Shown here: one piece after another, positions 3,051-63,190 of the stretch | Numbering within the stretch: the first letter of the stretch is position 1 | How the letters are laid out: each line of letters begins with the position of its first letter | Assembly: GCA_018828385.1 (NCBI GenBank) | Contig: JAHJVE010000007.1 | Location: forward strand, 1 to 64,000 | Direction of reading: 5' to 3' | DNA from: Gammaproteobacteria bacterium | Lineage (GTDB): Bacteria > Pseudomonadota > Gammaproteobacteria > Burkholderiales > Rhodocyclaceae | DNA: 64,000 bases | Translations under genes and position numbers: made by a program | Notes under the pieces: model-generated | Told to the model about the DNA's origin: nothing | Databases searched by the model: none | Seen by the model: the letters and a program-made list of their open reading frames with translations, nothing else

Positions 3051-3841
3051 TGGAGTCGCTTTTCGTCCGCCTCGCGGAAGTCTTGGCCGCTTCCGAAATT
3101 GGCCCAAAAATCCGGTTGACCGTAGCAATCGCTGCCGACTGGCGGGCTGGTCAGCTCGATTGGCATGACACCGCACCGGTCACCCTCGTTTGCGGCCGGC
3201 CAGCCAAACCGGAACTGCTGCCGCACAAAGACGTACCGAATCGCAACCCGGCCACACCGGAAGGTCGGGCCCGCTTGCTCCACGCCATCGTGCACATCGA
3301 GTTTTCGGCCATCAACCTCGCTCTTGATCATGCTGCCCGCTTTCGCGGCCTGCCGCAAGCCTATTACGCCGACTGGATCGGCGTCGCCGCCGAAGAGGCC
3401 GAGCATTTCGAACTGCTGCGCGCCCGCCTGCAATCACTCGGCTACGACTACGGCGACTTCCCGGCCCACGCTGGCCTGTGGGACATGGCGGAAAAAACCA
3501 CCGACGACGCCCTCGTCCGGATGGCGCTCGTCCCGCGCCTGCTCGAAGCGCGTGGCCTCGACGCTACGCCGCCCATCCAGATGAAACTCGAACAGGTCGG
3601 TGACCACGAAAGCGCCCGCGCCCTCGACATCATTTTGCGCGATGAAATCGGTCACGTCGGCCTTGGCGATCGCTGGTTCCGCCACCTCTGCACCGAGCGA
3701 AATCTCGAACCGGAAAGCACCTACCGCGACCTGCTAACCCGCTACCAGGCCCCCTGGCCACAGGGAAAAATGAACGAATCAGCGCGCCTCGCAGCTGGCT
3801 TCAGCGCTGGTGAGCTGGCGGTCCTTGCAAAAAAAAGGTAG
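3050..3841 (+). CDS. DUF455 ferritin-like protein
   Basis: This 263-aa protein belongs to the DUF455 ferritin-like family, predicted four-helix-bundle proteins with a possible di-metal site. Candidate ligands are the Glu in HIEFSAINLALDHA, the EAEH motif in AAEEAEHFELL, and the DEIGH motif in ILRDEIGHVGLGDRW. No biochemical role is established; some annotations suggest a tRNA-hydroxylating or rubrerythrin-like enzyme. It is coupled to tas by a one-base overlap. Codons about 14-26 (PKIRLTVAIAAD) are built from a reverse copy of the dispersed element. Confidence 0.8.
   Translation: MESLFVRLAEVLAASEIGPKIRLTVAIAADWRAGQLDWHDTAPVTLVCGRPAKPELLPHKDVPNRNPATPEGRARLLHAIVHIEFSAINLALDHAARFRGLPQAYYADWIGVAAEEAEHFELLRARLQSLGYDYGDFPAHAGLWDMAEKTTDDALVRMALVPRLLEARGLDATPPIQMKLEQVGDHESARALDIILRDEIGHVGLGDRWFRHLCTERNLEPESTYRDLLTRYQAPWPQGKMNESARLAAGFSAGELAVLAKKR
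3091..3126 (-). repeat. Dispersed bipartite element, copy 1 (reverse, inside DUF455 gene)
   Basis: Read on the minus strand: core TGCTACGGTCAACCGG, then tract ATTTTT, spacer, GGCC, tract AATTT. It lies wholly within coding sequence near the N-terminus, where it encodes part of a poorly conserved segment. Confidence 0.85.
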
Positions 3842-4042
3842 AATAATCAGTTCAATGCGTTGATGTTTCGCCCGCAGTCATTCCGAGCAGCCACCGGTCT
3901 CGTAGGTTCTTGTGCAGGATTCACCCCATTGATTCGTTCCCCGGCATGGCTGCGTCGGGGTCACCCAGGCCGCCCGACCATCGGGCCAATCCGTCGCCGG
4001 TTATAACAATGTGAATGGCGACGAGGAAAGGAAACAACATCT

Positions 4043-5894: not shown

Positions 5895-5989
5895 GTCTGG
5901 CATTTTCGCGCGGACGGATACGCGAAACAGCTGTCTATTTTAAGCCCGCAACCGGATTTACCCGCCGTGGCGAGGCCGGTGCGGCACCC

Positions 5990-6025
5990 CCACGGTCAAC
6001 CGGAATTTTTCGCCAAATTTGAAAT
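5990..6025 (+). repeat. Dispersed bipartite element, copy 2 (forward, intergenic)
   Basis: CCACGGTCAACCGG, then AATTTTT, CGCC, AAATTT, GAAAT. It lies between the deaD terminator and the convergent histidine kinase gene. Both A/T tracts are kept but with T in place of A, so A/T content seems to matter more than exact sequence. Confidence 0.9.
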
Positions 6026-8058: not shown

Positions 8059-8205
8059 AACGCGTCAGGGTTTCATGCAAAGAGGAAGCTATCTTGAACC
8101 TAAATTAAGAAAATTGCATAAAACATGCAGGACGAAAAAGCGGCGCATCCCGCTTCGGACAGCCTTCGCCGAGCCCCGTCCGCTACAGCCCGGCAATCAG
8201 CCAGT

Positions 8206-8240
8206 CCTACGGTCAACCGGGAAAAATCGGCAATTTTGGA
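8206..8240 (+). repeat. Dispersed bipartite element, copy 3 (forward, intergenic)
   Basis: CCTACGGTCAACCGGG, then AAAAA, CGGC, AATTTTGGA. It lies about 30 bp upstream of the -35 box of the siderophore-receptor promoter, in the divergent intergenic region. Confidence 0.9.
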
Positions 8241-8270
8241 ACAGGTGGCCAGCCCCCGACGGGTAACAAC

Positions 8271-8474: not shown

Positions 8475-10781
8475 ATGAAAAAACAATCCAACAAAACCAA
8501 GTTCCCGGCCAGCTTCCGGGTTCCCGGCATGGCCCAGACCAGCATTGCGCTGGGCGTTTCCACCGCCATGCTGATGCCGATGGGCGTCGCCCGTGCCGAT
8601 GACGATGTCGAAATGAAGCCGGTCACCGTCATCGAACGCGCCTTCGACCACAACCCCTATGCCGAACCGGATGCGCCGTACAAGGCCAAAAAATCCGGCG
8701 ACGACCGCCGCACCCGTCCGCTGGCCGAAACGCCGGCGACCATCCAGGTCATGACCAAGACCCAGATCGAGGATTCCGGCTACTCCGACCTGCGGGAAAT
8801 CCTCGACGCCCAGCCCGGCATCACGCTCGGCACCGGCGAAAACGGCAATGCCTTCGGTGACCGCTACATCATCCGCGGCTACGAAGCCCGTTCCGACGTC
8901 TTCGTCGACGGCCTGCGCGACCCGGGCATGACCATCCGCGAGAGCTTCGCCGTCGAACAGGTCGAAGTCTCCAAGGGCCCGAGCTCGAGCTTTGCTGGCC
9001 GCGGCACCGTTGGCGGGGCGGTCAATGCGATCACCAAGCAGGCTACGGTCGACTACGATTTCACCAAGATTTCGGCCGGCATCGGCACCGACGACTACGG
9101 CCGCGTCACACTCGATGCCAACCATGTCGTCAGCGACAACGTCGCCCTGCGCGCCAATCTGCTCTACGGCTACGAAGGCGTCCCCGACCGCGCGCCGGCC
9201 GACCGCGAACGCAAGGGTGTGGCGCTCTCCGGCCTGTTCAAGCCGAGCGACAATCTCGACATCCTGCTCGATTACTACGGCTTGCGCGCCAACGACAAGC
9301 CCGATCTCGGCTCGTGGCTGACCGGCACCGTGCCGAATCGCCGGCCGATGGCGAATTCGCCGGTCTATGCCCAGGACGGCGATTTCCTGACTTCCGATGT
9401 CGATACCTTCACCGGCCGCGTCAAGTACAAGATCACGCCCAACCTGCGGCTGACCAACCTGACGCGCTACGGCCGTTCGGAAAACGGATATGTGGCGACC
9501 GGCGCCTCCGCCTCGTCGACCCTGACCAACCTCAACCTGACGACCCATTCAGGCTGGCAGGATGTCGACTATTTCGTCAACCAGACCAGCCTGGCCTGGG
9601 ACACGAGCATCGCCGGCATGAAGCACGATTTCATCTTCAGCCTCGAATACACCGATCACAAGGTGTTGAACGGCCTCTATGAAATCGGCGGTGTGGTCAG
9701 CGGCGCCAACAATCCCCGCCTGAACAACGTGCCGGCGGCATCGGCACAGACGGCGCTGGACCGGAGCAACATCACCAAGAACACTGACAACTGGGACATC
9801 GACTGGCAAGCCAAGGCGGTTTCCGTATCGGCCATGGACACCGTCGACCTGACGGAAAAGTGGACGGCTTTTGCCGGCGTGCGCTACGACAAGACCGAGA
9901 TCTCGCTGAGAACGCGGCAGGCCGCTGTCGGTGGCGGCGCCAGCCCGCCCCCGGTCGGCACCATCAACGACTACGGCAGCCAGAACGCCGGCATGTGGAA
10001 CAGCCATTTCGGGCTGGTCTACAAGTTCCTGCCCTACGCCAACGTCTATGCCGCGTATGGTTCGGCAGCCGACCTCAACGGCGGCGAATCCGACGTCGGC
10101 AGCAGTTCGGGCTACGGCGGCATGGTCACCTACAACGGCTCGGCAGCCGGCGCCAAGCCGGAGAAAGCCGAGAACATCGAACTCGGTACCAAGTGGAACC
10201 TGCTCGGCGAAAAGCTGCTGGCCACGGCGGCCATCTTCCAGACCACCAAGTCAGACGTCATGGAAGGCGCCAATTACGACACGGTCGGCACCTTCAACAC
10301 CGGTGAAAACCGCGTCCAGGGCATCGAACTCGGCCTGGCCGGCAACCTCACCGAGAAGCTCAGCGCCTTTGCCGGCGTCGCCTTCATGGCGTCGGAAGTG
10401 CTCGCCTCGACCAATGCCGCCAACGTCGGCAAGCGTTTGAGCAACTTCGCCGACATCACGGCCTCGGCCCAATTACGCTATCAACTGACGCCCAAGTTTG
10501 CCTTCGGCTCGGCCGTCAAGTACGAGAGCGAAAAGTACGCCGGGCAACCGGACACGGCGGCCGGCTTCAGCACGACAACCGGGCAATATTCACAGCCCAT
10601 CCCGGCCTACACCGTGGTCGACGCCTTCGCCGACTACCGCCTGACCAAGCAGGCGAAAGTGCGCCTCAATGTCGGCAATGTGTTCAACGCCGACTACTAC
10701 CTGGCCGGTTATCGCTCCGGCGCCTTCGTGTACAAGGGCGATGCCATCAACGCGCGCCTGACCCTGAACTACGACTTCTAA
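8475..10781 (+). CDS. TonB-dependent siderophore receptor (Fiu-like)
   Basis: This 768-aa outer-membrane ligand-gated receptor probably takes up catecholate ferric siderophores. It has an extended signal peptide (cleavage near ARA-DD, about 41), a TonB-box-like EMKPVTVIE, a plug domain (about 75-190: PATIQVMTKTQIEDSGYSDLREIL, then RDPGMTIRESFAVEQVEVSKGPSS), and a beta-barrel ending with the C-terminal Phe of outer-membrane proteins (LTLNYDF). The adjacent PiuC/YbiX-type dioxygenase recalls the fiu-ybiX pair of E. coli and piuA-piuC of Pseudomonas, so a Fiu/PiuA-like catecholate receptor is the best guess. The exact ligand cannot be read from sequence. GATAGGAAT precedes the ATG. Confidence 0.9.
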   Translation: MKKQSNKTKFPASFRVPGMAQTSIALGVSTAMLMPMGVARADDDVEMKPVTVIERAFDHNPYAEPDAPYKAKKSGDDRRTRPLAETPATIQVMTKTQIEDSGYSDLREILDAQPGITLGTGENGNAFGDRYIIRGYEARSDVFVDGLRDPGMTIRESFAVEQVEVSKGPSSSFAGRGTVGGAVNAITKQATVDYDFTKISAGIGTDDYGRVTLDANHVVSDNVALRANLLYGYEGVPDRAPADRERKGVALSGLFKPSDNLDILLDYYGLRANDKPDLGSWLTGTVPNRRPMANSPVYAQDGDFLTSDVDTFTGRVKYKITPNLRLTNLTRYGRSENGYVATGASASSTLTNLNLTTHSGWQDVDYFVNQTSLAWDTSIAGMKHDFIFSLEYTDHKVLNGLYEIGGVVSGANNPRLNNVPAASAQTALDRSNITKNTDNWDIDWQAKAVSVSAMDTVDLTEKWTAFAGVRYDKTEISLRTRQAAVGGGASPPPVGTINDYGSQNAGMWNSHFGLVYKFLPYANVYAAYGSAADLNGGESDVGSSSGYGGMVTYNGSAAGAKPEKAENIELGTKWNLLGEKLLATAAIFQTTKSDVMEGANYDTVGTFNTGENRVQGIELGLAGNLTEKLSAFAGVAFMASEVLASTNAANVGKRLSNFADITASAQLRYQLTPKFAFGSAVKYESEKYAGQPDTAAGFSTTTGQYSQPIPAYTVVDAFADYRLTKQAKVRLNVGNVFNADYYLAGYRSGAFVYKGDAINARLTLNYDF

Positions 10782-10794
10782 AAAGGTGGCAAGG

Positions 10795-10827
10795 CCGGGT
10801 GGATCTGCGGAGTCACCCGGTTTTTTT
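10795..10827 (+). terminator. Rho-independent terminator after the siderophore receptor
   Basis: Stem CCGGGTG (10795-10801) pairs with CACCCGG (10814-10820), followed by TTTTTTT (10821-10827). The next gene's ATG is at 10829, immediately after the T-run, so this hairpin separates the receptor from the downstream oxidase and PiuC genes. Confidence 0.85.
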
Positions 10828-10828
10828 C

Positions 10829-11950
10829 ATGAATAAACCACACCCTCCACTACAACAAATCCCGCGTGAAATTCACTGCGCGGCAGATTACGAACATCTG
10901 GCGCCCCACTTCATCGCGGCGCCGGCCCTGGCCTACATCGCCGGCGGCTGTGGCGACGAACTGAGCCTGGCCGCCAACCGCAACGCCTTCGCCCGGACGC
11001 AGATCCTGCCGCGCCTGCTACGCGACATGCACGACGGCCATACCCGCAGCGAACTGCTTGGGCGGACCTGGGCGCACCCCATTCTGCTCGCCCCGGTGGC
11101 CTATCAGCGGCTGGTCCATCCGCTCGGCGAACTGGAAACGGCACGGGCGGCTGCCGCCACCGATACCTGCCTGGTGACCAGCACGCTCGCCTCGCAAAAG
11201 CTCGAAGAAGTGGCCCGACTGGCCGGCGACGAACGCTGGTTCCAGCTCTATTTGCAGCCGACACAGAATGCTACGGTCGACCTCATAAAACGGGCAGAAA
11301 TGGCCGGCTACACGGCGCTCGTCGTGACGCTGGACACGGCGATCAAACTGCCCGGCCGACGCGCCCAGGAGGTCGGCTTCACCATGCCACGCGACGTTAC
11401 CGAGGCCAACCTGGCCGATTACCCGGTGCCGCCGCCCATCGTGCTCGAACCCGGTGCCAGCCGCGTTTTCCAGGGCGCCATGCGCCAGGCGCCGACCTGG
11501 AACGATCTGGCCTGGTTACTCGGCCAGACCCGCCTGCCGGTACTGATCAAGGGCGTGCTCCATCCCGACGACGCAACCCGCCTGCAGGCCATGGGCGTCG
11601 CCGGACTGATCGTATCCAATCACGGCGGCCGGAGGCTCGACGGCGTGCCGGCCAGCCTTGACGTCTTGCCGCGCATCCGCCGGGCCGTCGGCGTCGATTT
11701 CCCGCTGCTGCTCGACAGCGGCATCCGCTCGGGCAGCGACATTTTCAAGGCCCTGGCGCTCGGCGCCGACGCTGTGCTCATCGGCCGCCTGCAGGTCTAC
11801 GCCCTGGCCGTCGCCGGGGCGCTGGGCGTCGCGCACCTGCTCAAACTGCTGCGCGAAGAACTGGAGGTCTGCATGGCGCAGGCCGGTTGCGCAAGGCTGG
11901 CCGACATCGGCCCGGACATGATTTATCGACACGAGGCAACATCATGCTGA
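10829..11950 (+). CDS. FMN-dependent alpha-hydroxy-acid oxidase/dehydrogenase (LldD/glycolate-oxidase family)
   Basis: This 373-aa TIM-barrel flavoenzyme oxidises a 2-hydroxy acid (lactate-like) to the keto acid. Catalytic and FMN-binding signatures are the Tyr in [10 protein letters not shown], Lys in [12 protein letters not shown], the active-site His in [11 protein letters not shown], and the phosphate loop [25 protein letters not shown]. Its place between a siderophore receptor and PiuC suggests a role tied to iron acquisition, perhaps oxidising a siderophore-derived hydroxy acid; that is inference. No ribosome site is visible before 10829 because the receptor terminator fills that space, and a GTG at 10799 would start inside the hairpin. 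The 3' end overlaps piuC by 7 bp. A degenerate copy of the dispersed element lies within it. Confidence 0.85.
11270..11303 (+). repeat. Dispersed bipartite element, degenerate copy 4 (forward, inside oxidase gene)
   Basis: GCTACGGTCGACC, then ATAAAA, CGGGC, AGAAATGG. It resembles copy 13 closely, with roughly six differences by eye. It encodes [11 protein letters not shown], so the match could be partly coincidental. Confidence 0.4.
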
Positions 11951-15424: not shown

Positions 15425-15493
15425 TGACGGCCCCCCTTCACTCACTTCGTTCGTTGCCCCCCTCCCTTGGGGCGGCCCGGCGGGAGACCTGAC
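15425..15493 (+). repeat. exbB-exbD spacer resembling a common intergenic repeat; encodes a 23-codon mini-ORF
   Basis: This 69-bp spacer carries TTCACTCACTTCGTTCG and a GC-rich foldable part (CCCTTGGGGCGGCC). A frame opening at the ATGATG that overlaps the exbB stop runs 23 codons (MMTAPLHSLRSLPPSLGAARRET) to a TGA two bases before the exbD ATG. I recall similar PLHSLRSLPP-like translations as repeated intergenic sequence in other betaproteobacteria, which would make this an inserted repeat and not a gene; a role in coupling exbB to exbD is possible but unproven. Confidence 0.5.
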
Positions 15494-15919
15494 ATGGCCA
15501 TGGGCAGCTTCAACGCGCAGAACCACCAGATGCCGACGGCGGAAATCAACATGACGCCGCTGGTCGATGTAATGCTGGTTTTGCTGATCATCTTCATCAT
15601 CACGGCGCCACTCATGACGCACCAGGTGCCGGTCGATCTGCCGCGCGCTTCGAGCACGCCGACGCCGGAAAAGCCGCTGACCCTGCAGGTCAGCATCGAC
15701 GCCGACAACCGCGTATTTTTGGCCGAAATTCCGGTTGACCGTAGCAGTCTCGAAAACCGCTTCCGCGATGCCGTGGCACAGGACGCCAAGGTCGAAATGC
15801 ACCTGCGCGCCGACCGCGCGACGCGCTACGAAACGGTGGCCGAAACGATGAGCGCCGCCCGTCGGGCAGGGCTGACCAAGATCGGTTTCGTGACCCAGCC
15901 GGGGGCCGCGCCGCTGTAA
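15494..15919 (+). CDS. exbD: TonB-system protein ExbD
   Basis: This 141-aa ExbD/TolR protein has a short cytoplasmic N-terminus, a single TM (about 23-42) with the essential proton-carrying Asp in the MTPLVDVMLVLLIIF motif, and a periplasmic domain ending KIGFVTQPG. The start at 15494 (MAMGSFNAQ) follows GGGAGACC; an upstream GTG-type start at 15467 lies in repeat-like spacer sequence. Residues about 75-85 (AEIPVDRSS) are encoded by a reverse copy of the dispersed element. Confidence 0.95.
   Translation: MAMGSFNAQNHQMPTAEINMTPLVDVMLVLLIIFIITAPLMTHQVPVDLPRASSTPTPEKPLTLQVSIDADNRVFLAEIPVDRSSLENRFRDAVAQDAKVEMHLRADRATRYETVAETMSAARRAGLTKIGFVTQPGAAPL
15714..15746 (-). repeat. Dispersed bipartite element, copy 5 (reverse, inside exbD)
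   Basis: On the minus strand: TGCTACGGTCAACCGG, AATTT, CGGCC, AAAAATA. It is translated as part of the periplasmic domain of ExbD in a different frame from the copy in the DUF455 gene. Confidence 0.85.
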
Positions 15920-15944
15920 AAATTTCGTTTTAAAACCATCCTCA

Positions 15945-15974
15945 AGCCAGCCACGCACCTGCCCAGCCAGCCAG
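15945..15974 (+). repeat. CCAGCCAGCC direct repeat before ftrA
   Basis: AGCCAGCCA (from 15945) and CCCAGCCAGCCAG (15962-15974) end 21 bp before the ftrA ATG, just upstream of its ribosome site CAGGGAG. Confidence 0.7.
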
Positions 15975-15995
15975 AGAAACCAGGGAGTCAAAAAA

Positions 15996-16541: not shown

Positions 16542-16543
16542 TC

Positions 16544-18025: not shown

Positions 18026-18358
18026 ATGAAAACCGCCCGCCTGCTTTTCATTTTTAGCCTTTTTTTCCAGTTGACCGTAGCAACGGCCGCCGACATGCCG
18101 ACCTACAAGCTGCTCATGAAGGATGGCCGCATTCATCCCGAAACGCTGGAAGTGCCGGCCATGACGCGCTTTCGGCTGGAGGTGAAGAATGAAGGGCCGG
18201 GCGCGGCGGAATTCGAGAGCCTGGAACTCAAGAAGGAACTGGTCCTTGCCCCCGGCGTGACGCGGAATCTGGTGTTTTTTCCGATGAAGCCGGGGACTTA
18301 CAAGTTTTTTGACGATTTCCACCCGGAAACCGGGCAGGGAAAGATCGTCGCCAAGTAA
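18026..18358 (+). CDS. ftrB: Periplasmic cupredoxin-domain protein, FtrB type
   Basis: This 110-aa protein has a signal peptide (1-22) and a cupredoxin_1-like beta-sandwich (MKDGRIHPETLEVPA, VKNEGPGAAEFES, PMKPGTYKFFDDFHPETGQGKI). In FtrABCD systems this protein is thought to oxidise or hand over Fe(2+) to the permease. A classical type-1 copper Cys is absent; His and Met/Glu could still bind metal. The hydrophobic core of the signal peptide (FSLFFQLTVATA) is encoded by a reverse copy of the dispersed element, an unusual case of a repeat supplying an export signal. Confidence 0.85.
   Translation: MKTARLLFIFSLFFQLTVATAADMPTYKLLMKDGRIHPETLEVPAMTRFRLEVKNEGPGAAEFESLELKKELVLAPGVTRNLVFFPMKPGTYKFFDDFHPETGQGKIVAK
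18047..18082 (-). repeat. Dispersed bipartite element, copy 6 (reverse, in ftrB signal peptide)
   Basis: On the minus strand: TGCTACGGTCAACTGG, AAAAAAA, GGC, TAAAAATGAA. One core base differs (CTGG for CCGG). It encodes the hydrophobic core of the FtrB signal peptide. Confidence 0.85.
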
Positions 18359-19213: not shown

Positions 19214-20597
19214 ACACGTCATCCAGTTCCACGCCAGCCGCCCGCAAAGCCGGGTAGCAAAAATCGGCCTTTTCCTCAGGAGAAACCGCCGGGCCATCAT
19301 TGCCGTGCAATGGCTCATCGTCATCCTCTACGCCGCGATGGTCATCATCCCGGCGTTTTTGCCCTTGCCGGCCGAAGACCAGCACATCTGGGACAACCTC
19401 CGCCTCTTCGCCCAATTCTGCTTCTGGGGCCTGTGGTGGCCCGGCGTCATGATCGCCACGGTAACCATGGGCCGCGTCTGGTGCGGCCTGTTCTGCCCGG
19501 AAGGCGCCATTTCCGAATGGGTCAGCCAGTACGGCCGGGGCAAGGCGCTGCCGCGCTGGCTCAAATGGACCGGGTGGCCCTTCGTCGCCTTCGTCATGAC
19601 CACGGTTTACGGCCAGCTGGTCAGCGTTTACGAATACCCGCAAGCGGCCTTGCTGGTCCTCGGCGGCTCGACCGTCGCGGCCATCGGCATCGGCCTGCTC
19701 TACGGCCGCGAAAAGCGCATCTGGTGCCGCTACCTGTGCCCGGCCTCCGGCGTCTTCGCTGTGCTGGCCAAGATCGCCCCGCTCCACTACAAGGTCGACC
19801 GCGACGCCTGGGACAAGTATCAGGGCGATTTCGAGCCGGTCAACTGCGCCCCGCTGCTCGACGTCCGGCGCATGACCAGCGCCTCCGAATGCCACAGCTG
19901 CGGCCGCTGCGCCGGCCAGCGCGATGCCGTCACCTATTCCGCCCGCTCGCCGTTCAGCGAAATCCTCGACTTCAACAACCCGGCCAAAACGCCGGAAGCC
20001 CTGACCCTCGTCTACGGCGTCCTCGGCGTCGCCACCGCCGCCTTCCAATGGACGCTCAGCCCCTGGCTACTCGCCATCAAACTGGCCGTCGCCGAATGGC
20101 TGGTCGACCACGACCACTTCGCCCTGCTCGACAACGACGTGCCGTGGTGGCTGCTCACCCACTACCCGGAAGCCAGCGACCTGTTCACCTGGCTCGACGG
20201 CGCGCTCATCCTCGCCTACCTGCTCGGCGGCGGTTTCCTGCTCGGCAGCCTGCTCCTCATCGGCCCGGCCCTCGCCGCCCGCGTCCTCAAAACCGAACAC
20301 CTGAGCTGGCAACGCTTCACCCTGGCGCTAACGCCGCTCGCCGCCGCCAGCGTCATCCTCGGCCTGTCGATGCTCACCGTCACCCATTTGAAGGCCGAAC
20401 ACCTGTGGCTAGGCTGGCTGCCCTATTTCCGCATCGGCCTGCTCACCGCCGGCTGCCTCGCCAGCCTGTGGCTGGCTTTGCAGCTAATCCTGCGGTCAAC
20501 CGGAAATAACAGCCAAAAATGGACTGCCGGGCTGGCGATGCTGTGGCCGGTCGGCCTCATGGCGACGGTTTGGACGCTCGTATTCTTTGTCTGGTAA
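19206..20597 (+). CDS. ftrD: Membrane polyferredoxin FtrD (4Fe-4S, NapH/RdxA-like)
   Basis: This inner-membrane iron-sulfur protein of about 463 aa has Cys motifs WCGLFCPEG and WCRYLCPASG typical of NapH/CcoG/RdxA polyferredoxins, then CHSCGRCAGQ, with 8-10 hydrophobic segments. In FtrABCD it is proposed to accept or supply electrons for iron oxidation or reduction during transport. The GTG at 19206 (MAEHVIQFHASRP) is chosen because GGAGGACCGG precedes it; the longer frame from 19152 runs over ftrC. Near the C-terminus, residues LRSTGNNSQKW are encoded by a forward copy of the dispersed element. Confidence 0.88.
   Translation: MAEHVIQFHASRPQSRVAKIGLFLRRNRRAIIAVQWLIVILYAAMVIIPAFLPLPAEDQHIWDNLRLFAQFCFWGLWWPGVMIATVTMGRVWCGLFCPEGAISEWVSQYGRGKALPRWLKWTGWPFVAFVMTTVYGQLVSVYEYPQAALLVLGGSTVAAIGIGLLYGREKRIWCRYLCPASGVFAVLAKIAPLHYKVDRDAWDKYQGDFEPVNCAPLLDVRRMTSASECHSCGRCAGQRDAVTYSARSPFSEILDFNNPAKTPEALTLVYGVLGVATAAFQWTLSPWLLAIKLAVAEWLVDHDHFALLDNDVPWWLLTHYPEASDLFTWLDGALILAYLLGGGFLLGSLLLIGPALAARVLKTEHLSWQRFTLALTPLAAASVILGLSMLTVTHLKAEHLWLGWLPYFRIGLLTAGCLASLWLALQLILRSTGNNSQKWTAGLAMLWPVGLMATVWTLVFFVW
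20490..20523 (+). repeat. Dispersed bipartite element, copy 7 (forward, inside ftrD)
   Basis: CTGCGGTCAACCGG, AAATAA, CAGCC, AAAAATGGA. It lies between two C-terminal membrane helices of FtrD, in a loop. Confidence 0.85.
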
Positions 20598-20680
20598 TTC
20601 ACGGTCGAGCCAAATTAGCAAAACTTGCCCCTACTTTTGAATGGCATAATCGGCCGAATACAAAAGCATAGGGGACGGTC

Positions 20681-22489: not shown

Positions 22490-22506
22490 TTTTATGGAGA
22501 AAGAAA

Positions 22507-24231: not shown

Positions 24232-24235
24232 TACC

Positions 24236-25588: not shown

Positions 25589-25629
25589 GTCAGTGCCCTT
25601 GGGGTCACCGTGAATTGGTTTTTCCAACC

Positions 25630-25664
25630 CCTACGGTCGACCGGAAAAATTAGCCAAAATGAAT
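25630..25664 (+). repeat. Dispersed bipartite element, copy 8 (forward, intergenic)
   Basis: CCTACGGTCGACCGG, AAAAATT, AGCC, AAAATGAATT. The core here is the perfect palindrome GGTCGACC. It starts 42 bp after the stop of the FliD-like gene. Confidence 0.9.
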
Positions 25665-25815
25665 TGGCGGGCCGCGATGCCTGGAGTTCAGTGAAAAACG
25701 GCGCGGCACATATCTTCACATTCCTTCCGCCTGCCATCTCTTAAACTGCCCGTGTGGCGCGCTGTGTCGGGCACAGACGCCATTCAATCCTTCCACGATT
25801 CAAGAGGAATTAGCC

Positions 25816-26614: not shown

Positions 26615-26767
26615 AAATCCATTTCTTGGAGGAGATGGAGGAGACAGGCGCTATTGTCTCCATAATTTTGCTGCAACGCAACAAATATTATGTGTCGTTT
26701 TTGAAACGCCGTGCCGGGCTGCCTTTCCGACGGCTGGACGCTCGTTGCGAAGGGGCTTGCCGACCTT

Positions 26768-26803
26768 CCACGGTCAACCGGAAATTCTGGCCAAAATCGA
26801 AAT
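26768..26803 (+). repeat. Dispersed bipartite element, copy 9 (forward, intergenic)
   Basis: CCACGGTCAACCGG, AAATT, CTGGCC, AAAATCGAAAT. It lies 100 bp upstream of the thioesterase start. Confidence 0.9.
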
Positions 26804-31824: not shown

Positions 31825-31831
31825 GCGGAAT

Positions 31832-31868
31832 CCTACGGTCAACCGGGAAAAAAGCCCAAAATCGACAT
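31832..31868 (+). repeat. Dispersed bipartite element, copy 10 (forward, intergenic)
   Basis: CCTACGGTCAACCGGG, AAAAAA, GCCC, AAAATCGACAT. It begins 8 bp after the cowN stop, between convergent genes. Confidence 0.9.
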
Positions 31869-41072: not shown

Positions 41073-41099
41073 GAGAACTCCTTGATGGTTGAAAAAGGT

Positions 41100-41627: not shown

Positions 41628-41643
41628 CTTCCGGCTTGATGCC

Positions 41644-42306: not shown

Positions 42307-42378
42307 GAAATTTCTCCGTTGGAATGGCCGAGTCTGACGATGGTATTTTTGCCAGACCGACAGCCGGATGACTGGCGG

Positions 42379-42394
42379 ATTACATTTTCGTAAT
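42379..42394. promoter_or_regulatory. CopR/CusR-type palindrome between cytochrome and cusR
   Basis: ATTACA-TTTT-CGTAAT, one base from perfect, is 73 bp from the cytochrome start and 66 bp from the cusR start. It is well placed to control both divergent genes and to give autoregulation of cusRS. A dispersed element begins 3 bp to its right. Confidence 0.65.
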
Positions 42395-42396
42395 CT

Positions 42397-42429
42397 GCTA
42401 CGGTCAACCGGAAAAACGGCGGAAAATGC
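42397..42429 (+). repeat. Dispersed bipartite element, copy 12 (forward, intergenic)
   Basis: TGCTACGGTCAACCGG, AAAAAC, GGCGG, AAAATGCG. It abuts the CusR-type palindrome in the cytochrome-cusR interval. Confidence 0.88.
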
Positions 42430-42459
42430 GAGCCTGATCGCCATTCCTGGTGGAGAAAC

Positions 42460-44531: not shown

Positions 44532-44553
44532 TTTCGGCCGGTCGCCAGTGATT

Positions 44554-44590
44554 GCTACGGTCAACCGGAAAAAACGGCCAAAAATGGAAT
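44554..44590 (+). repeat. Dispersed bipartite element, copy 13 (forward, intergenic; best consensus copy)
   Basis: GCTACGGTCAACCGG, AAAAAA, CGGCC, AAAAATGGAAT. It begins 22 bp after the cusS stop, between convergent genes. This is the copy closest to the consensus. Confidence 0.92.
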
Positions 44591-46783: not shown

Positions 46784-47995
46784 ATGACCACCCAGCTCGC
46801 CCCGCGCACCGAACGCTTTTTCCTGCTCACCCTGGCCGGCATCCAGTTCAGCCACGTCCTCGATTTCATGATCATGATGCCGCTCGGCCCCATCCTCATG
46901 GCCGCCTTCGGCATCGGCACGCACGAATTCGGGCTGCTCGTCGCCTCCTACAGTTTCAGCGCCGCGGTGTCCGGCATTCTCGCTGCCACCTTCGTCGACC
47001 TCTTCGAGCGCAAGCGCCTGCTGCTCATCGTATTCACCCTGTTCGGCCTGGCCACGCTGGCCTGCGGCCTGGCGCCGGGCTATTCGACGCTGATCCTGGC
47101 GCGCGGCATGGCCGGCGTTTTCGGCGGCGTCATGGGCGCCCTGGTGCACACCATGATCGCCGACGCCATCCCCTTTTCGCGGCGGGGACGGGCCAGCGGC
47201 GTGGTGTCGAGCGCCTTTTCGCTGTCCACCATTGCCGGCGTGCCGCTCTCGCTGTGGCTGGCCAACCACCTCGGCTGGCGGGCGCCTTTTGTGCTGATTT
47301 TCGGGTTGACCGTCGCATTCCTCGCCGTCGGCCTGCGCTTTCTGCCCGAACTGCGCCACCACATCGGCGAGGAAAAACGCGCCCATCTGCTCTCCGCCAC
47401 TTTCAGCGTGCTGGCCGACGCCAACCACCGCCGCGCCCTGCTCTTTTCGGCGCTCATCATCTTTTCCGGCTTCACGATCATCCCGTACATCACGGTCTAT
47501 GCCGTCAACAATGTCGGGATCGCCCAGACCGACATCCCCATCGTCTATCTGGTCGGCGGCACGGCCACCTTCATCAGCGCCCGGCTCATCGGGCGCTGGG
47601 CCGACCGCCACGGCAAGGTCGAGGTCTATCGGCTGGTCGCCCTGCTCGCCCTGCTGCCGACGCTGGTCATTACCCACGCCGGTGTGCTGCCGCTGTGGGG
47701 CTGGCTGATCATCTCGGCCAGCTTCTTCGTGCTCATCTCGGGGCGCATGATCCCGGCCATGGCCATCATCGCCTCCGCCGCCGACCCCAAGCTGCGCGGC
47801 ACCTTCCTGTCGCTCAACGGCACCGTGCAATCGCTGGCCATGGGCCTCGCCACCACGCTGGCCGGCTTCCTCACCTCGCTCGACGCCAGCGGCCGCATCG
47901 TCGGCTATGCGCAGGTCGGCTACGTTGCCGTAGTGGCCAATCTGCTCGCCATCTGGTTCGTCGCGCGCATCGTCATGCACGGCAGGAACAACTGA
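46784..47995 (+). CDS. MFS transporter (drug/metabolite exporter type)
   Basis: This 403-aa major-facilitator protein has 12 predicted helices. The DHA1-type loop motif between TM2 and TM3 is FVDLFERKRLLLI, the TM4-5 region is ILARGMAGVFGGVMGALVHTMIADAIPFSRRGRASGVV, and a GRWADRHGKVEVYR loop lies between TM8 and TM9. These place it with DHA1-like exporters such as arabinose or drug efflux proteins. The substrate is unknown. It is followed after 9 bp by a hypothetical membrane protein gene. Confidence 0.88.
   Translation: MTTQLAPRTERFFLLTLAGIQFSHVLDFMIMMPLGPILMAAFGIGTHEFGLLVASYSFSAAVSGILAATFVDLFERKRLLLIVFTLFGLATLACGLAPGYSTLILARGMAGVFGGVMGALVHTMIADAIPFSRRGRASGVVSSAFSLSTIAGVPLSLWLANHLGWRAPFVLIFGLTVAFLAVGLRFLPELRHHIGEEKRAHLLSATFSVLADANHRRALLFSALIIFSGFTIIPYITVYAVNNVGIAQTDIPIVYLVGGTATFISARLIGRWADRHGKVEVYRLVALLALLPTLVITHAGVLPLWGWLIISASFFVLISGRMIPAMAIIASAADPKLRGTFLSLNGTVQSLAMGLATTLAGFLTSLDASGRIVGYAQVGYVAVVANLLAIWFVARIVMHGRNN
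47288..47317 (-). repeat. Dispersed bipartite element, degenerate copy 14 (reverse, inside MFS gene)
   Basis: On the minus strand TGCGACGGTCAACCCG, AAAATC, AGCAC, AAAAGG. Both tracts and most of the core remain. It encodes LIFGLTVAFLA in a membrane helix. Confidence 0.45.
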
Positions 47996-50360: not shown

Positions 50361-50399
50361 ATTTCGTTTTTGGCTGTTTTTTCCGGTTGACCGTGGGAA
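50361..50399 (-). repeat. Dispersed bipartite element, copy 15 (reverse, intergenic)
   Basis: On the minus strand CCCACGGTCAACCGG, AAAAAAC, AGCC, AAAAACGAAAT. It begins 15 bp after the nudC stop, between convergent genes. Confidence 0.92.
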
Positions 50400-50476
50400 T
50401 GGCTAGTTGTTTAGAGACGGAAGACAGCCAATACCAGCCGATGACCGGCTCGAAGCCAGCCTAAGTTATGCGGCAA

Positions 50477-54954: not shown

Positions 54955-54992
54955 ATTTCGATTTTGCGCGAAATTTCCGGTCGACCGTAGCA
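54955..54992 (-). repeat. Dispersed bipartite element, copy 16 (reverse, intergenic)
   Basis: On the minus strand TGCTACGGTCGACCGG, AAATTT, CGCGC, AAAATCGAAAT. It begins 6 bp after the bfd stop. The core holds the palindrome GGTCGACC. Confidence 0.9.
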
Positions 54993-55086
54993 TTCACCCG
55001 GCCAAAACTTGCCCTGGATCAGCAAACCCCTTTTCAAACCGGCGTAGAGTGACGGTCTCCCCGGCAAGACCAGAAATCCTTTAAAC

Positions 55087-57036
55087 GTGACCACCTCCGC
55101 CTCTGCCGCCAACGCCATCCTGCTCGTCGGCCATCCCAACGTCGGCAAATCCGTCCTCTTTCACCGCCTGACCGGCGCTTACGTCAACGTTTCGAACTAC
55201 CCCGGCACCACCGTCGAAGTCACCCGCGCCAGCGCCCGTTTCGACCGCGAGGCGATGCTCCTCGACACCCCCGGCGTACTCGCCCTGCCCTCGCGCAGCG
55301 ATGACGAACGGGCGACGATGCGCGCCCTGCTCAACGAATCCTCGCGCTGCCTCGTCCAGGTCGGCGATGCCAAGAACCTGCGCCGCACGCTGACTTTGAC
55401 CGCCCTGCTGGCCGAACTTGGCGTGCCCATGGTGCTGGCGCTGAACATGCACGACGAGGCCGCAGCGCGCGGCGTCGTTGTCGATACCGCGGCGCTCTCC
55501 GAAGAACTTGGCATCCCCGTGCTGGCCACCGTCGCCACCGGCGGCGAAGGCATCGGCGAACTGACTCACGGCCTCGGTCACGCCCGACCCGCCGAAGCGC
55601 TGCTGCGCTACGACCCGGAAATCGAGGCCGACATCGCCGCCATGGCCGAGGCCATCACCCGCCTCGCCCCGCATCCGCAACTGGCGGCGCGCGGACTGGC
55701 GATTCTTTATCTTGGCGGCGATTCGGTGGTCGCCGACTGGCTGATCGAGCACGCCGGCGACTCCCACGGTCAACTGGAAAAAGTGCGCAAAAACGCAGTC
55801 GACCGTAGCGATGGCGACCTCCCCGCCCTGCTCGCCCGCGAACGCACCGAAGCGGCCGATGCGCTGGCCGCCAGCGTCATCCAGCGCGCCGTCAAGAGCA
55901 GCCCGCTGCTCTCGCAACGCCTCGGCCAGTACGTCGTACATCCCGTCTGGGGCGGGCCCATCCTGCTCGGCGTGCTCTACGCCGTCTATCAATTCGTCGG
56001 CGTTTTCGGCGCCACGGTACTCGTCGGGCTACTCGAAAAAGACCTGTTCGAAGGCATACTCAATCCCGCCTTCACCACGCTGGTCGGCGCCCTGGCCGGC
56101 CCAGGCTGGCTGCAGGACTTGCTGGTCGGCCAGTACGGCCTGTGGTCCATGGGCATGACCTACGCGCTGGCGCTCATCCTGCCCATCGTCACCACCTTCT
56201 TCTTCGCCTTCGGCGTGCTTGAGGACTCCGGCTACCTTCCCCGCCTGACGGTCATCGCCAACCGGCTGTTTTCGCTGATCGGCCTCAACGGCCGCGCGGT
56301 TTTGCCGATGGTCCTCGGCCTCGGCTGCGTGACGATGGCGACGCTGACGACGCGCATCCTGCACAGCCCGCGCGAACGGCTGATCACCATCTTCCTGCTC
56401 GCCCTGGCCATCCCGTGCTCGGCGCAACTCGGCGTCGTGCTCGGCATGCTCGGTGGCGTGTCATTCACCGCCGTCCTCGTCTGGGCGCTGGCCATGGTCG
56501 CCGTCCTGCTGCTCTCCGGCTTCCTCGCCGCCAGGCTCATTCCCGGCCGGCGCATCCCGCTCGTCACCGAACTACCGCCGATGCGCCTGCCGATCTTCGC
56601 CAACGTGCTCAAGAAAACCGGCGGCCGGCTCAAGTGGTACCTCATCGAAGTCATCCCGCTCTTTTTGCTCGGCACCTTCATCATGTTCGCGCTCGACAAA
56701 AGCGGCGCGCTGCCCGCCATCATCGAAGCCGGCGAGCCGCTCGTCTCCGGCTGGCTCGGCCTGCCCAAGGAAGCCTCGGCCGCCTTCGTCATGGGCTTCC
56801 TGCGCCGCGACTTCGGCGCCACCGGCCTGTTCGCCATGGCCCACAGCCTGAGCCCGATTCAGGCGGTGGTCGGGATGATCACCATCACCCTGTTCATCCC
56901 CTGCTTCGCCAGCCTCATGATGATGATCAAGGAACAAGGCACCAAGATCGCCCTCGGCATGGTCGCCATCATCGTCCCCTTCGCCTTCTTCGTCGGCGGC
57001 CTGTTCAACCTCCTCCTCCGCGCCGTCTGGTCATGA
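55087..57036 (+). CDS. feoB: Ferrous iron transporter FeoB
   Basis: This 649-aa inner-membrane Fe(2+) transporter has an N-terminal G domain: G1 GHPNVGKSVLFHRL, G2 region YPGTTVEVTRA, G3 LLDTPGV, G4 LNMHDEA, then a helical domain and the membrane part with two Gate domains (GVLEDSGYLPRLTVIANRLF, LGLGCVTMATLTTRIL with the conserved Cys, and GFLRRDFGATGLF). It is shorter than E. coli FeoB (773 aa) but intact. The start is GTG at 55087. It overlaps feoA by 4 bp. A paired, convergent copy of the dispersed element lies at codons about 226-240. Confidence 0.93.
   Translation: MTTSASAANAILLVGHPNVGKSVLFHRLTGAYVNVSNYPGTTVEVTRASARFDREAMLLDTPGVLALPSRSDDERATMRALLNESSRCLVQVGDAKNLRRTLTLTALLAELGVPMVLALNMHDEAAARGVVVDTAALSEELGIPVLATVATGGEGIGELTHGLGHARPAEALLRYDPEIEADIAAMAEAITRLAPHPQLAARGLAILYLGGDSVVADWLIEHAGDSHGQLEKVRKNAVDRSDGDLPALLARERTEAADALAASVIQRAVKSSPLLSQRLGQYVVHPVWGGPILLGVLYAVYQFVGVFGATVLVGLLEKDLFEGILNPAFTTLVGALAGPGWLQDLLVGQYGLWSMGMTYALALILPIVTTFFFAFGVLEDSGYLPRLTVIANRLFSLIGLNGRAVLPMVLGLGCVTMATLTTRILHSPRERLITIFLLALAIPCSAQLGVVLGMLGGVSFTAVLVWALAMVAVLLLSGFLAARLIPGRRIPLVTELPPMRLPIFANVLKKTGGRLKWYLIEVIPLFLLGTFIMFALDKSGALPAIIEAGEPLVSGWLGLPKEASAAFVMGFLRRDFGATGLFAMAHSLSPIQAVVGMITITLFIPCFASLMMMIKEQGTKIALGMVAIIVPFAFFVGGLFNLLLRAVWS
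55763..55809. repeat. Dispersed element, convergent double copy 17/18 inside feoB (degenerate)
   Basis: A forward CCACGGTCAACTGG, AAAAA, GTGCGC, AAAAACG is followed immediately by a reverse CAGTCGACCGTAGCG, giving an inverted pair sharing the A/T tracts. It encodes SHGQLEKVRKNAVDRS in the linker between the helical domain and the membrane domain of FeoB. Confidence 0.55.
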
Positions 57037-57540: not shown

Positions 57541-57590
57541 GGGGACCCGAAAGGCGTCCACGGGCAACCGGTTTGCCGAAAAAAATGATT

Positions 57591-57627
57591 CCTACGGTCA
57601 ACCGGGGAAAAAGCCCAAAAATGAAAT
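57591..57627 (+). repeat. Dispersed bipartite element, copy 19 (forward, in inverted-repeat spacer)
   Basis: CCTACGGTCAACCGGGG, AAAAA, GCCC, AAAAATGAAAT. It sits in the 170-bp spacer between the arms of the long inverted repeat. Confidence 0.9.
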
Positions 57628-60990: not shown

Positions 60991-61015
60991 CGAAACCCCT
61001 TGTCCGTGCTTCCAC

Positions 61016-63190
61016 TCAGCGGCCCGGCTGCCAGCGCTTCAACAGCAGCGAGTTCGATACTACCGACACCGAACTCATCGCCATGGCGGCCCCCGCCACC
61101 ACCGGATTGAGCAAGCCCATGGCCGCCAGCGGAATTCCCGCCACATTGTAGATGAATGCAAAGAAAAGATTTTGCCGGATTTTGCCCAAAGTGGCCGCCG
61201 ATAGGGCGATTGCGTCAACCACACCGAGCAGGTCGCTACGAATCAATGTTAAATCTGCCGCCTCCACCGCGGCGTCGGAACCGGCGCCGATGGCAAAGCT
61301 GACATCGGCCGCGGCCAGGGCCGGCGCATCGTTGATGCCGTCGCCGACCATGGCCACCAATCCGCCGTCGGCTTTCAATTCCTTGATCGCCGCCGCCTTG
61401 TCGCCGGGCAGAATGCCGGCGCGGAACTCGGCGATACCGGCCTCGGCAGCAATCGCCGCGGCCGTTGCCGCGTTGTCGCCAGTCAGCATGACAACCCGGA
61501 TGCCGCGCTCGCGCAGCTTGCCGACCGCCACCCGCGAAGTCGGCCGCAAGGCATCGGCGATGGCAAACAGGGCCAGCGTGGTTGCGCCTTCGGCCAGCCC
61601 CACCACCGTCTTGCCGGCCCGCTGCAATTCGGCCACCGTCGGGTCGTCAGCCAGCCCCAGCCAGCTCGGCGACCCGAGGCGTAGCATCCGGCCCTCGACC
61701 TCGCCTTCGACGCCATGCCCGGCCAGGGATTTGAAATTTGCCGCTTTTTTCCGGTTGACCGCAGGAATGCCAGCAACAGCGGCGGCAACGACAGCCCGCG
61801 CCAGCGGATGCTCGGAATTCTCCTCGAGCGCTGCCGCCAAGCCGAGCGCCTCCTCGCGCGTCAGGCCGTAGGGCACGACATCGGTGACTTGCGGCGTGCC
61901 GCAGGTCAGCGTCCCGGTTTTATCCAGCGCCAGCACGGTGATCTTCTCGGCCCGCTCCAGCGCCTCGGCGTTCTTGACCAGAATGCCGGCCCGCGCCCCC
62001 TGCCCGGTGCCGACCATGATCGCCGTCGGCGTCGCCAGACCGAGCGCGCACGGGCAGGCGATGACCAGCACGGCGACGGCATTGACCAGCGCCTCGGCGA
62101 AATCGCCGGCATACCACCACCAGCCGGCGAAGGTGGCGAGCGCGATGACGCACACCGTCGGCACAAAAATCGCCGAAATCCGGTCGGCCAGCCGCTGCAC
62201 CGGCGCCTTCGAACCCTGCGCCTCGCCGACCATGCGGATGATGCCGGCGAGCAGCGTGTGCTCACCAACGCCAGTCGCCCGGCAGCGCATCGCCCCCTGG
62301 CCGTTGGCCGTCGCGGCAAAAACCTTGTCGCCGGCTCGCTTGCCCACCGGCATGCTCTCGCCGGTCAGCATCGCCTCATTGACGCTCGATTCGCCGTCGA
62401 TCAACTCGCCATCGACCGGCACGCTTTCACCCGGACGAACGAGGAAAACGTCACCCGGCATCAGCGCTTCGACCGGCATATCGATCCACTGTCCATCGCG
62501 TTCGACGCGCGCCGTCTTGGGCTGCAGACGGATCAGCGACTCGATGGCCTCCGAGGTCCGCGCCTTGGCCCGCGCTTCGAGCAGTTTGCCGAGCAGGACC
62601 AGCGTGATGACTGCCGAACCGGCCTCGAAATAGACATGCTGGGCCAGCCCGAACAGCGTGACCACCGTCGAAAAACCCCAGGCCATGCTCGTCCCGAGCG
62701 CCACCAGCACATCCATATTGGCGCCGCCGCCACGCAGGGCCTTGAAGCCGCCATCGTAGAAACGCCAGCCGATCCAGAACTGCACCGGCGTCGCCAGCGC
62801 CAGCTGGAACCAGCGCGGCAGTTCGTTCATGTGGCCATGTTCGCCGAACATGAAAAGCATCTGCCCGACGAGCGGCAAGGTCAGCGCCACCGAAATCCAG
62901 AAACGACGGATTTCGCTACGGTAAACGAGCAATTTCGCGGCTTTTTCACGTTCGCGCGTTTGCCCATCGACCACCGCAGCCGTGAAGCCGGCCTTGGCGA
63001 CAGCGGCCACCACCGCTGCTTCGTCGGCACCAGCCGAAAGACGAATGCGCGCCCGCTCGGCGGCCAGATTGACATTGGCCTGCATGCCGGCCTGGCGATT
63101 GAGCACCTTCTCCAGCCGCGCCGAACAAGCGGCGCAGGTCATGCCGCCGATGGCAAACTCGACGACCCGACCGCTATCTGCCTCGGTCAT
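61016..63190 (-). CDS. copA: Copper-translocating P1B-type ATPase CopA
   Basis: This 724-aa Cu(I)-exporting P-type ATPase has one N-terminal HMA domain ([13 protein letters not shown]), eight membrane helices with the CPC metal site ([12 protein letters not shown]), an actuator motif LTGESMPV, the phosphorylation site DKTGTLT, the nucleotide-binding [13 protein letters not shown], and [15 protein letters not shown]. The start at 63190 ([10 protein letters not shown]) overlaps the preceding usp stop as ATGA. In the N domain, residues [12 protein letters not shown] between the HP motif and the next strand are encoded by a dispersed element. Confidence 0.95.
61729..61767 (-). repeat. Dispersed bipartite element, copy 20 (reverse, inside copA)
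   Basis: On the minus strand TTCCTGCGGTCAACCGG, AAAAAA, GCGGC, AAATTTCAAAT. It is translated in the ATPase nucleotide-binding domain, in a loop that varies among P1B ATPases. Confidence 0.88.

Follow-up and report, generated by a model that had tools for sequence, protein, structure and literature searches.

A dispersed core-plus-A-tract element in Azonexus/Dechloromonas genomes: a probable self-DNA uptake signal

A dispersed element of about 40 bp was confirmed in the genome from which the window (the whole stretch of 64 000 nucleotides analysed here) was taken. It is probably a self-DNA uptake signal, that is, a genomic watermark of the USS/DUS kind, of Azonexus/Dechloromonas, a betaproteobacterial genus of freshwater and soil bacteria. 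The results support the original prediction of a DNA-uptake-type signal; the uptake function and a reader protein are inferred. Of the three outcomes named in that prediction as refuting it, none was encountered: copies greatly exceed chance throughout the genome, the alignable copies show no insertions, and competence genes occur. This reading is strengthened by the occurrence of dialects, by gain and loss at the species level, by the origin of copies through substitution and by their scarcity in foreign DNA.

Copies, architecture and placement of the element

Searching the window with the core TACGGTCAACCGG at up to two mismatches gave 22 matches (shuffled sequences: mean 1.17, largest 4). 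A 40-column matrix was built from 55 copies, all outside the window, and applied with a cutoff of 15 bits. It retrieved 20 copies in the window, and 20 Markov-simulated windows gave 0 copies each, even at 10 bits. When 70 copies were used for the matrix, at least 30 bits were reached by 17 of the 20 matches, in agreement with the predicted 16 good copies, or about 20 with degenerate ones. The copies from the matrix scan (13 plus, 7 minus) are the following.

1959..1998, plus, weak copy, 18.2 bits
3090..3129, minus, 46.8 bits, within the DUF455 gene 3050-3841
5986..6025, plus, 49.2 bits, intergenic
8203..8242, plus, 48.4 bits, intergenic
11267..11306, plus, weak copy, 25.1 bits, within ORF 10799-11950
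15709..15748, minus, 37.1 bits, within called ORF 14744-16105 (minus; no Pfam family)
18045..18084, minus, 56.1 bits, in the start of the cupredoxin-like gene 18026-18358
20486..20525, plus, 52.4 bits, within a called ORF
25627..25666, plus, 40.9 bits, intergenic, GGTCGACC form
26764..26803, plus, 50.5 bits, intergenic
31829..31868, plus, 57.8 bits, intergenic, directly 3' of a stop codon
33413..33452, plus, 43.0 bits, at the start of ORF 31885-33432(-)
42394..42433, plus, 38.6 bits, intergenic
44551..44590, plus, best copy, 64.4 bits, intergenic
47280..47319, minus, weak copy, 22.1 bits, within the MFS transporter gene 46784-47995
50361..50400, minus, 61.0 bits, intergenic
54955..54994, minus, 52.7 bits, upstream of feoB
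55760..55799, plus, 40.6 bits, within feoB (55087-57036)
57588..57627, plus, 59.9 bits, intergenic
61729..61768, minus, 54.5 bits, within a called ORF

The copy at 57588..57627 is preceded, 34 bp upstream and in the same orientation, by a degenerate core copy (57559-57571).

Across the source genome the copy number was far above chance, and both orientations were present as expected: 590 near-exact cores were counted (290/300 by orientation), compared with 18 (7/11) for a reversed-pattern control. A sample of this genome contained 91 copies in 464 kb and therefore about 840 copies per genome, an extrapolation close to the predicted figure of roughly 1000. The predicted density of one copy per 3–4 kb held within the window (20 copies in 64 kb), which is denser than average; all sampled pieces of two genomes, window included, contained 158 copies in 864 kb. 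The average density is about 0.2 per kb, below the approximately one per kb that is typical, not strictly defining, of uptake sequences. Fairly even spacing had also been proposed and was not borne out, the coefficient of variation of 0.80 differing non-significantly from that of random placing (0.89 ± 0.06, p = 0.07).

The consensus is ATTSC-TACGGTCAACCGG-AAAAAWnGGCCAAAAWTGAAAT, in which a strongly conserved core, (A/G)CGGT(C/G)(A/G)AC, is followed by two phased TpA-free A-tracts. The A/T tracts, predicted to lie 10–11 bp apart, are centred at about +16.5 and +27.5, i.e. 11 bp apart and helically phased, and weak further A/T peaks occur at about −11 and −21. The interchange of A and T within the tracts is real, with avoidance of TpA in both (tract 1, 10 seen versus 46.2 expected; tract 2, 2 versus 34.7).

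The top-ranked over-represented 11-mers of the source-genome sample were pieces of the element. The 11-mer CGGTCAACCGG was 113-fold over expectation in this sample and its one-mismatch copies 3.1-fold. Perfect copies of it outnumbered one-mismatch copies both in the source genome (57 versus 48) and in the closed relative G347 (45 versus 38). For the 9-mer ACGGTCAAC in the source genome the counts were 77 perfect and 188 one-mismatch (ratio about 11-fold above chance), and for TGCGGTCGA in D. denitrificans 36 and 192 (about 5-fold above chance). The 11-mer excess points toward a strong consensus of the USS/DUS kind, and the raw excess fails on 9-mers, the word length used in the cited part of PMC1626085, which describes an anomalously strong consensus for USS and DUS.

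Genes were called with our own heuristic in the samples of the source genome and G347, which together contained 151 copies. Of these, 53 (35%) lay no more than 50 nt downstream of a stop codon, compared with 4.3% of random positions, as the original prediction had suggested. Inside called genes 75 copies were found and outside them 76, although 87% of the bases were called coding, which amounts to an intergenic excess. The position after stop codons would suit a post-transcriptional or transcription-termination element, for which there is a precedent in USS and DUS pairs co-opted as terminators (according to the cited part of PMC1852404). Such a role is nevertheless very unlikely: half of the copies are inside genes and in both orientations (40/35), merely three close pairs (<60 bp) occur among 121 spacings, and the interchange of A and T would be expected to break a fixed hairpin. 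Local co-option could have taken place in the palindromic dialect described below, which has full inverted copies.

In G347, 72 copies were found in 20 pieces across 4.42 Mb, with copies in 18 of the 20 pieces and no clustering at ori or ter in these sampled pieces; 31 copies point one way and 41 the other, without following the GC skew. A Chi-like recombination signal or another replication-linked signal, as hundreds of copies with a short conserved core might suggest, is highly improbable in view of the equal orientations genome-wide and the lack of a clear GC-skew link in G347. Chi-type signals are octamers, far shorter than this element, and the two A-tracts would be left unexplained.

Distribution, dialects and origin of copies

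Among the genera sampled, the element was confined to Azonexus/Dechloromonas, where 42 of 76 species had at least 21 copies and 34 had 0–15. The 241 genomes of other genera of the same family gave 0–3 matches each, as did 369 further genomes drawn from the class (four of them shared with another sample). Many of the genomes are MAGs or drafts; the one-contig genomes G312, G347, G369 and G301 showed the same pattern. Counts from the iterated matrices of D. denitrificans and G301 were left out, as these matrices admitted background at 10 bits. Species that are close by FeoB can be unlike in copies (A. fungiphilus, 171; A. hydrophilus DSM 23864, 6).

At least three dialects were distinguished, and these are largely species-specific. 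Type A, with the core ACGGTCAAC containing ACGGT, was assigned to 11 of the 76 species (more than 150 copies of CGGTCAACCGG). The second, TGCGGTCGAC plus tracts, was present in 137, 119, 100 and 86 copies in other species versus 10 in the source genome, and its consensus has GCGGT with no A four bases before it. The third, the palindromic ACGGTCGACCGT plus tracts, was found in 74 and 93 copies in two species and in 0 in the source genome; full inverted copies occur, and tracts flank the palindrome on either side in places. Different versions sometimes occupy the same orthologous position. At the site 18045..18084, for example, D. hortensis and D. denitrificans have the TGCGGTCGAC dialect in a gap-free alignment. 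G326 is mixed (137 TGCGGTCGAC and 97 CGGTCAACCGG), and the carriers G303, G304 and G355 match none of the three dialects well. Hidden further dialects were sought by k-mer scans of 100 kb each, which gave no dominating word in the element-poor G305, G353, G320 and D. agitata, nor in the low-copy carrier G218 (29 copies); the best z in these five scans was 6.4, compared with 10.7 for the carrier G347 with an equal amount of DNA.

These data bear on the chief rival, in which a nucleoid-associated or chromosome-organising protein would bind the element, recognising the core and bending or bridging the DNA through the phased A-tracts. The phased TpA-free tracts with their weak further peaks, the even coverage of the chromosome and the intergenic excess would all agree with such a site. 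We consider it unlikely, since 34 of 76 congeners have so few copies, some of them being very close to carriers by FeoB, since dialects replace one another, and since G347 has no ori/ter cluster and an orientation independent of GC skew. The consensus is moreover stronger than is usual for an intracellular site, an argument taken from the cited part of PMC1626085.

For the origin of copies, 82 sites were compared with orthologous loci, of which 20 were alignable; none of the 122 spanning alignments lacked 20 nt or more at the element site and no split alignment with a 25–60-nt gap was found, the other 62 sites giving no alignment and the aligner disfavouring 40-nt gaps. The copy within feoB was spanned by 48 alignments, 32 of which were gap-free over the 40 columns, in relatives with and without the element. 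The copy at 54955..54994 was retained in the aligned relatives L029, L030, L031 and L071, beyond which synteny was too poor. Within conserved genes, the sequence of the copies departs from that of relatives by substitutions. Judging by these alignments, the alignable copies arose by substitution in place and not by insertion.

A small mobile repeat, either a REP with its RAYT transposase or a MITE, would account for the high copy number and the intergenic excess. It was rejected for the alignable copies, which show no precise insertion, and is extremely unlikely overall. No Y1 transposase was found in the source genome or in G312, G317, G333, G336, G343 and G347, the in-gene copies differ by substitutions, and the interchange of A and T within tracts of fixed length is unexpected for copied repeats. 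In the genus as a whole, a Y1 transposase was present in 33 of 76 genomes; 4 of the 11 type A species have it and 7 do not.

The element is scarce in recently acquired DNA, as judged from small samples (one island and three low-G+C pieces). A 33.7-kb integrase-bearing island within comEC of G333 has 0 copies, with about six expected at 180 per Mb, and its flanks retain copies. The 60 kb made up by the three pieces with less than 55% G+C contained 2 copies, compared with 156 in the 804 kb of the other 38 pieces.

Competence genes and a proposed mechanism

The competence genes sought were present. Of the 76 genomes of the genus, 71 contained ComEC, including all 51 high-quality ones, and comEC itself has a copy of the element. 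The source genome encodes a ComP_DUS-type pilin (42.5 bits; cutoff 27.3), the gene for which adjoins those for a GspH/FimT-type pilin, PilW and PilY1. The ComP_DUS-type pilin was found in 70 of 76 genomes, carriers and non-carriers alike. ComEC and this pilin are also present in species without the element, so that carriers cannot be told from non-carriers by these genes; in G333, a species rich in the element, comEC is even interrupted. Matches to PF16732 in carriers and non-carriers comprised mixed pilin types, none of which demonstrably follows dialect. The predicted model of the ComP_DUS-type pilin from the source genome resembles a generic minor pilin, with N. meningitidis PilV as the best match and ComP third. 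The literature searched (bioRxiv and most subscription papers being outside its scope) contained no report of an uptake sequence in Azonexus/Dechloromonas; no report of natural competence of these species was found in it, and the 13-mer core did not occur in the paper texts searched.

In the proposed mechanism, a receptor for DNA on the cell surface would read the element. This receptor would most likely be a minor type IV pilin, the ComP_DUS-type and GspH/FimT-type pilins encoded side by side in the source genome being candidates. It may recognise the bases of the core and, in the A-tracts, the bend and the narrow minor groove. DNA bearing the element would be captured and then drawn through the secretin to ComEC, and its recombination would spread the favoured sequence by molecular drive. 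An altered reader would favour another version, copies would be rewritten and dialects would result; where uptake or its bias was lost, copies would decay and leave species without the element.

To our knowledge, self-DNA uptake labels are so far known in two bacterial families only. We regard it as somewhat likely that Azonexus/Dechloromonas represents a third, independently evolved lineage of uptake watermarks, belonging to betaproteobacteria that live free in the environment. On this view the lineage, with at least three species dialects that largely exclude one another (one a palindrome that A-tracts flank on either side in places), would have converged on the Haemophilus design of GCGG(T) plus phased A-tracts, would be read by a minor pilin and would have been gained or lost repeatedly within one genus. 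If there is a third lineage alongside those of Pasteurellaceae and Neisseriaceae, it would show that self-recognition evolves repeatedly, also outside host-bound bacteria. The genus has 76 sequenced species, carriers as well as non-carriers of the signal, in which one could test why uptake specificity arises, shifts dialect and disappears; cultured carriers among them include Dechloromonas denitrificans ATCC BAA-841 and Azonexus fungiphilus DSM 23841. The A-tract design in common with Haemophilus would make the shape-reading part of the putative receptor directly testable.

Comparison with known systems

REP elements are short, species-specific repeats with hundreds of copies, most of them intergenic. 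The Azonexus element is similar to REP/RAYT systems in copy number and intergenic bias; unlike in these, the source genome has no RAYT and the alignable copies have no insertion footprint.

With the DUS of Neisseriaceae, which is read by the pilin ComP, the element has in common a family-wide watermark with dialects and some relatives without any (for DUS, the cited part of PMC3630211), and a ComP_DUS-type pilin is also present in the source genome. The distribution of DUS has served to find mobile islands (cited part of PMC7371117). Unlike in DUS, no GCCGTCTGAA-type core with CTG is present in the Azonexus consensus.

The closest counterpart in architecture is the USS of Pasteurellaceae (Hin type, AAGTGCGGT; Apl type, ACAAGCGGT), in which the core is likewise followed on its 3' side by a pair of A/T tracts spaced by about one turn. 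A strong consensus, clade dialects and an origin by point mutation instead of insertion are also common to both (for USS, the cited part of PMC1626085). GCGGTC is shared between the Apl 10-mer ACAAGCGGTC and the TGCGGTCGAC dialect. In H. influenzae uptake, rigid or bent A/T tracts matter and GCGG is the crucial inner core, according to the cited part of PMC7811141. Protein–DNA modelling of pilins has reportedly been carried out for Pasteurellaceae (PMC12616744). The USS core ANNNGCGGT itself is absent: type A has ACGGTCAAC, with ACGGT instead of GCGGT, and the TGCGGTCGAC dialect is without the preceding A. Unlike in USS, the Azonexus core is longer, an additional AC(CGG) block separating CGGT from the first tract. 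The tract centres are 11 bp apart and not 12 as in the Hin type, the density is lower and one dialect is palindromic, flanked in places by tracts on either side. The carriers also differ, those of the Azonexus element being a betaproteobacterial lineage.

Copy number, anatomy and placement

Matches to the core TACGGTCAACCGG with at most two mismatches numbered 22 in the window against a shuffle mean of 1.17. Alignment of 70 copies, drawn from a 400 kb own-genome sample in addition to the window, gave the 40-column consensus ATTSC-TACGGTCAACCGG-AAAAAWnGGCCAAAAWTGAAAT, with 47.6 bits of information in total, 21 of them within the 13-base core. When the matrix was built from 55 copies outside the window, it detected 20 inside it; 20 simulated windows gave none. 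At a threshold of 10 bits, a matrix scan gave no copies in 2 Mb of simulated sequence and 91 in 464 kb of the own genome, which extrapolates to about 840 copies genome-wide. Cores with at most one mismatch numbered 590 in this genome (290 and 300 on the two strands; 7 and 11 for a reversed-pattern control).

The anatomy was analysed using 165 copies of two genomes, chosen by the core alone. The A/T content peaks at +14 to +19, at +25 to +30 and then at +32 to +35 (flank mean 0.38); upstream peaks are strong at -4 to -2 and weak near -11 and -21, and the peak spacing is about one helical turn. A and T swap inside the tracts while TpA steps are nearly absent (10 versus 46.2 expected and 2 versus 34.7 expected), so the original prediction that shape and not sequence is kept is borne out for the tracts; narrow-groove, bent A-tracts require the absence of TpA steps. 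Such tracts are also accounted for by the main rival explanation, in which the element is a binding site for a nucleoid protein.

For placement, 864 kb of the own genome and of a one-contig relative (G347) were examined, with genes called heuristically. 76 of the 151 copies lie outside called genes, although called coding sequence makes up 87% of the bases, and 53 lie 0-50 nt past a stop codon (4.3% for random positions). Of the copies in coding sequence, 40 have one orientation and 35 the other. The relative carries 180 copies per Mb, and of the 20 pieces taken across its chromosome 18 contain at least one. Spacing had been described as fairly even; its evenness over random was not significant (p = 0.07). 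The three pieces of low G+C content (<55%) hold two copies in 60 kb and the other 38 pieces 156 in 804 kb. In the window, the first copy-free stretch (20526-25626) overlaps the part of lowest G+C (0.54); the longest (33453-42393) has normal to high G+C.

Distribution and dialects

Using a dialect-neutral pattern, 42 of the 76 species genomes of Azonexus/Dechloromonas contain at least 21 copies and 34 contain at most 15 (control, at most two per genome). Named carriers are D. denitrificans (138 copies), D. hortensis (126), A. fungiphilus (171) and Azonexus sp. R2A61 (146); named element-poor genomes are D. agitata is5 (two) and A. hydrophilus DSM 23864 (six). The 10-15 copies in some element-poor species may be remnants. 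In other genera, 241 genomes of the family and 369 others drawn from the class gave 0-3 matches each, and among 297 genomes from the rest of the order the core of type A (the own-genome dialect) occurred at most 14 times per genome, with similar controls. Closest to the FeoB of the window are proteins of MAGs labelled no further than Betaproteobacteria, Proteobacteria or Azonexaceae; Dechloromonas and Azonexus come next. The genus was identified as Azonexus/Dechloromonas because named genomes have the same copy counts as numbered genomes in the genus of the window (for example D. denitrificans, G385 = G111, and A. fungiphilus, G389 = G307). A 41-row FeoB tree, labelled by the presence of at least 40 copies (20 rows; one sequence, L041, counted as without), needs 12 changes, and 87 of 500 shuffles needed as few; presence is thus patchy and close relatives differ, on a tree of one gene that may itself have moved.

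More than 150 copies of type A (CGGTCAACCGG) are present in 11 of the 76 species. The form TGCGGTCGAC with tracts reaches 137, 119, 100, 86 and so on in other species and ten in the own genome; ACGGTCGACCGT with tracts has 74 and 93 copies in two species, eight in A. fungiphilus, at most one elsewhere and none in the own genome. This last dialect is in places a full palindrome with tracts flanking both sides. Its overlapping both-strand matches in two genomes (contig C1 of G301, e.g. G301:C1:1148769-1148808, and G352) are inverted repeats, which could also act as hairpins. A fourth form, TGCGGTGAAC, makes up three of the five copies of one piece (L051). The separation of dialects is imperfect: G326 has 137 copies of the TGCGGTCGAC type and 97 of type A, and three genomes (G303, G304 and G355) fit all three dialects poorly. 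In the sample from D. denitrificans, TGCGGTCGA is the top over-represented 9-mer; other repeats outrank the core in G301. Other words strongly over-represented there (L123-L132), such as GTCTCAGGCTT with 42 copies in 200 kb, are perhaps a repeat cluster. A nucleoid-protein site leaves both the dialects and the near-absence from 34 of the 76 congeners unexplained.

Orthologous sites and foreign DNA

Dialects swap at single orthologous positions in a cupredoxin-like gene and in comEC. In the former, at 18045, GCTACGGTCAACTGG of the own genome aligns without a gap to GCTGCGGTCGACGCC of D. denitrificans. The own comEC reading frame (L012, stop to stop 14911-17247) has a copy at 15230-15269, CCACGGTCAACCGG; the orthologous place in G326 has CTGCGGTCGACGGC, of the TGCGGTCGAC dialect, with one 1 nt gap. 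Of the 48 alignments of the feoB copy at 55760, 32 are gap-free; they are to species that carry the copy as well as to species that lack it.

Insertion was assessed for 82 copies with 300 nt flanks; for 20 of these, alignments to relatives (122 in all) spanned the site. In none of the 122 was 20 nt or more missing at the site (0/923 at random control positions), and split alignments with an extra 25-60 nt were absent. With 20 of the 82 copies alignable and the aligner disfavouring 40 nt gaps, power is limited for intergenic copies. Small gaps in the 40 nt window were commoner at copies (61/122) than at controls (133/923), as would be expected of strongly altered sequence, but they also make the alignments there rough. 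Judged from these alignments, the alignable copies (20 of 82) are not insertions.

In the element-rich genome G333 (505 copies by the strict pattern), an insert of about 33.7 kb (G333:C33:109525-143311, L243-L245) separates comEC into two pieces, the small N-terminal piece being a weak match (E = 5e-4). The island encodes a tyrosine integrase, a B-family polymerase, a D5-like protein and a Y-family polymerase. It contains no element copy, about six being expected at 180 per Mb, and the nearest copies flank it. comEC is broken at about the same place (Competence domain position 26-29) in G333 and G353 (G353:C1:2218607-2251157), and perhaps also in G356, with the two pieces on different contigs (C39 and C72); mobile islands may use this gene as a recurrent integration site. 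The sole viral contig matched by the strict type-A pattern (L249, IMGVR_UViG_3300029891_000082) has copies at 810-849(-) and 9380-9419(+) and a Toprim domain in one ORF; it may be phage DNA bearing the watermark of its host.

Candidate reader and comparison with known uptake sequences

ComEC was found in 71 of the 76 genus genomes and in all 51 of high quality. Minor pilin genes form an operon-like run in the own genome.

Members of the run at 8152-15274 of L223
ComP_DUS-type pilin with four cysteines
GspH/FimT-type pilin
PilV-like pilin (by position and N-terminus only)
PilW
PilX-like protein (by position and N-terminus only)
PilY1

The model of the ComP_DUS-type pilin (mean pLDDT 79.8) is closest to Neisseria PilV, then to a Shewanella pilin and then to ComP. 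ComP_DUS-type matches also occur in element-free species and are of mixed type, so this pilin is only a candidate reader.

Among the computable properties of uptake sequences that were examined, the element lacks their density; perfect cores outnumber mismatched cores for 11-mers and not for 9-mers; all of the remaining properties are present. We consider that the element is probably a DNA-uptake signal. A pilin would read it and uptake would be biased towards DNA carrying it; recombination of the DNA taken up, together with molecular drive, would spread it. This mechanism is proposed because it is established in Haemophilus and Neisseria (excerpts of PMC1626085, PMC7811141, PMC3630211 and PMC12616744), rather than from data on this organism.

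Passages of PMC12616744 (2025) and PMC7811141 (2020) name uptake preferences for two families only, and no report of an uptake sequence in Azonexus/Dechloromonas was found in the literature searched. By its sequence, the element belongs neither to the Pasteurellaceae uptake signal sequences nor to the Neisseriaceae DNA uptake sequences; by every sign available, it would work like these two families.
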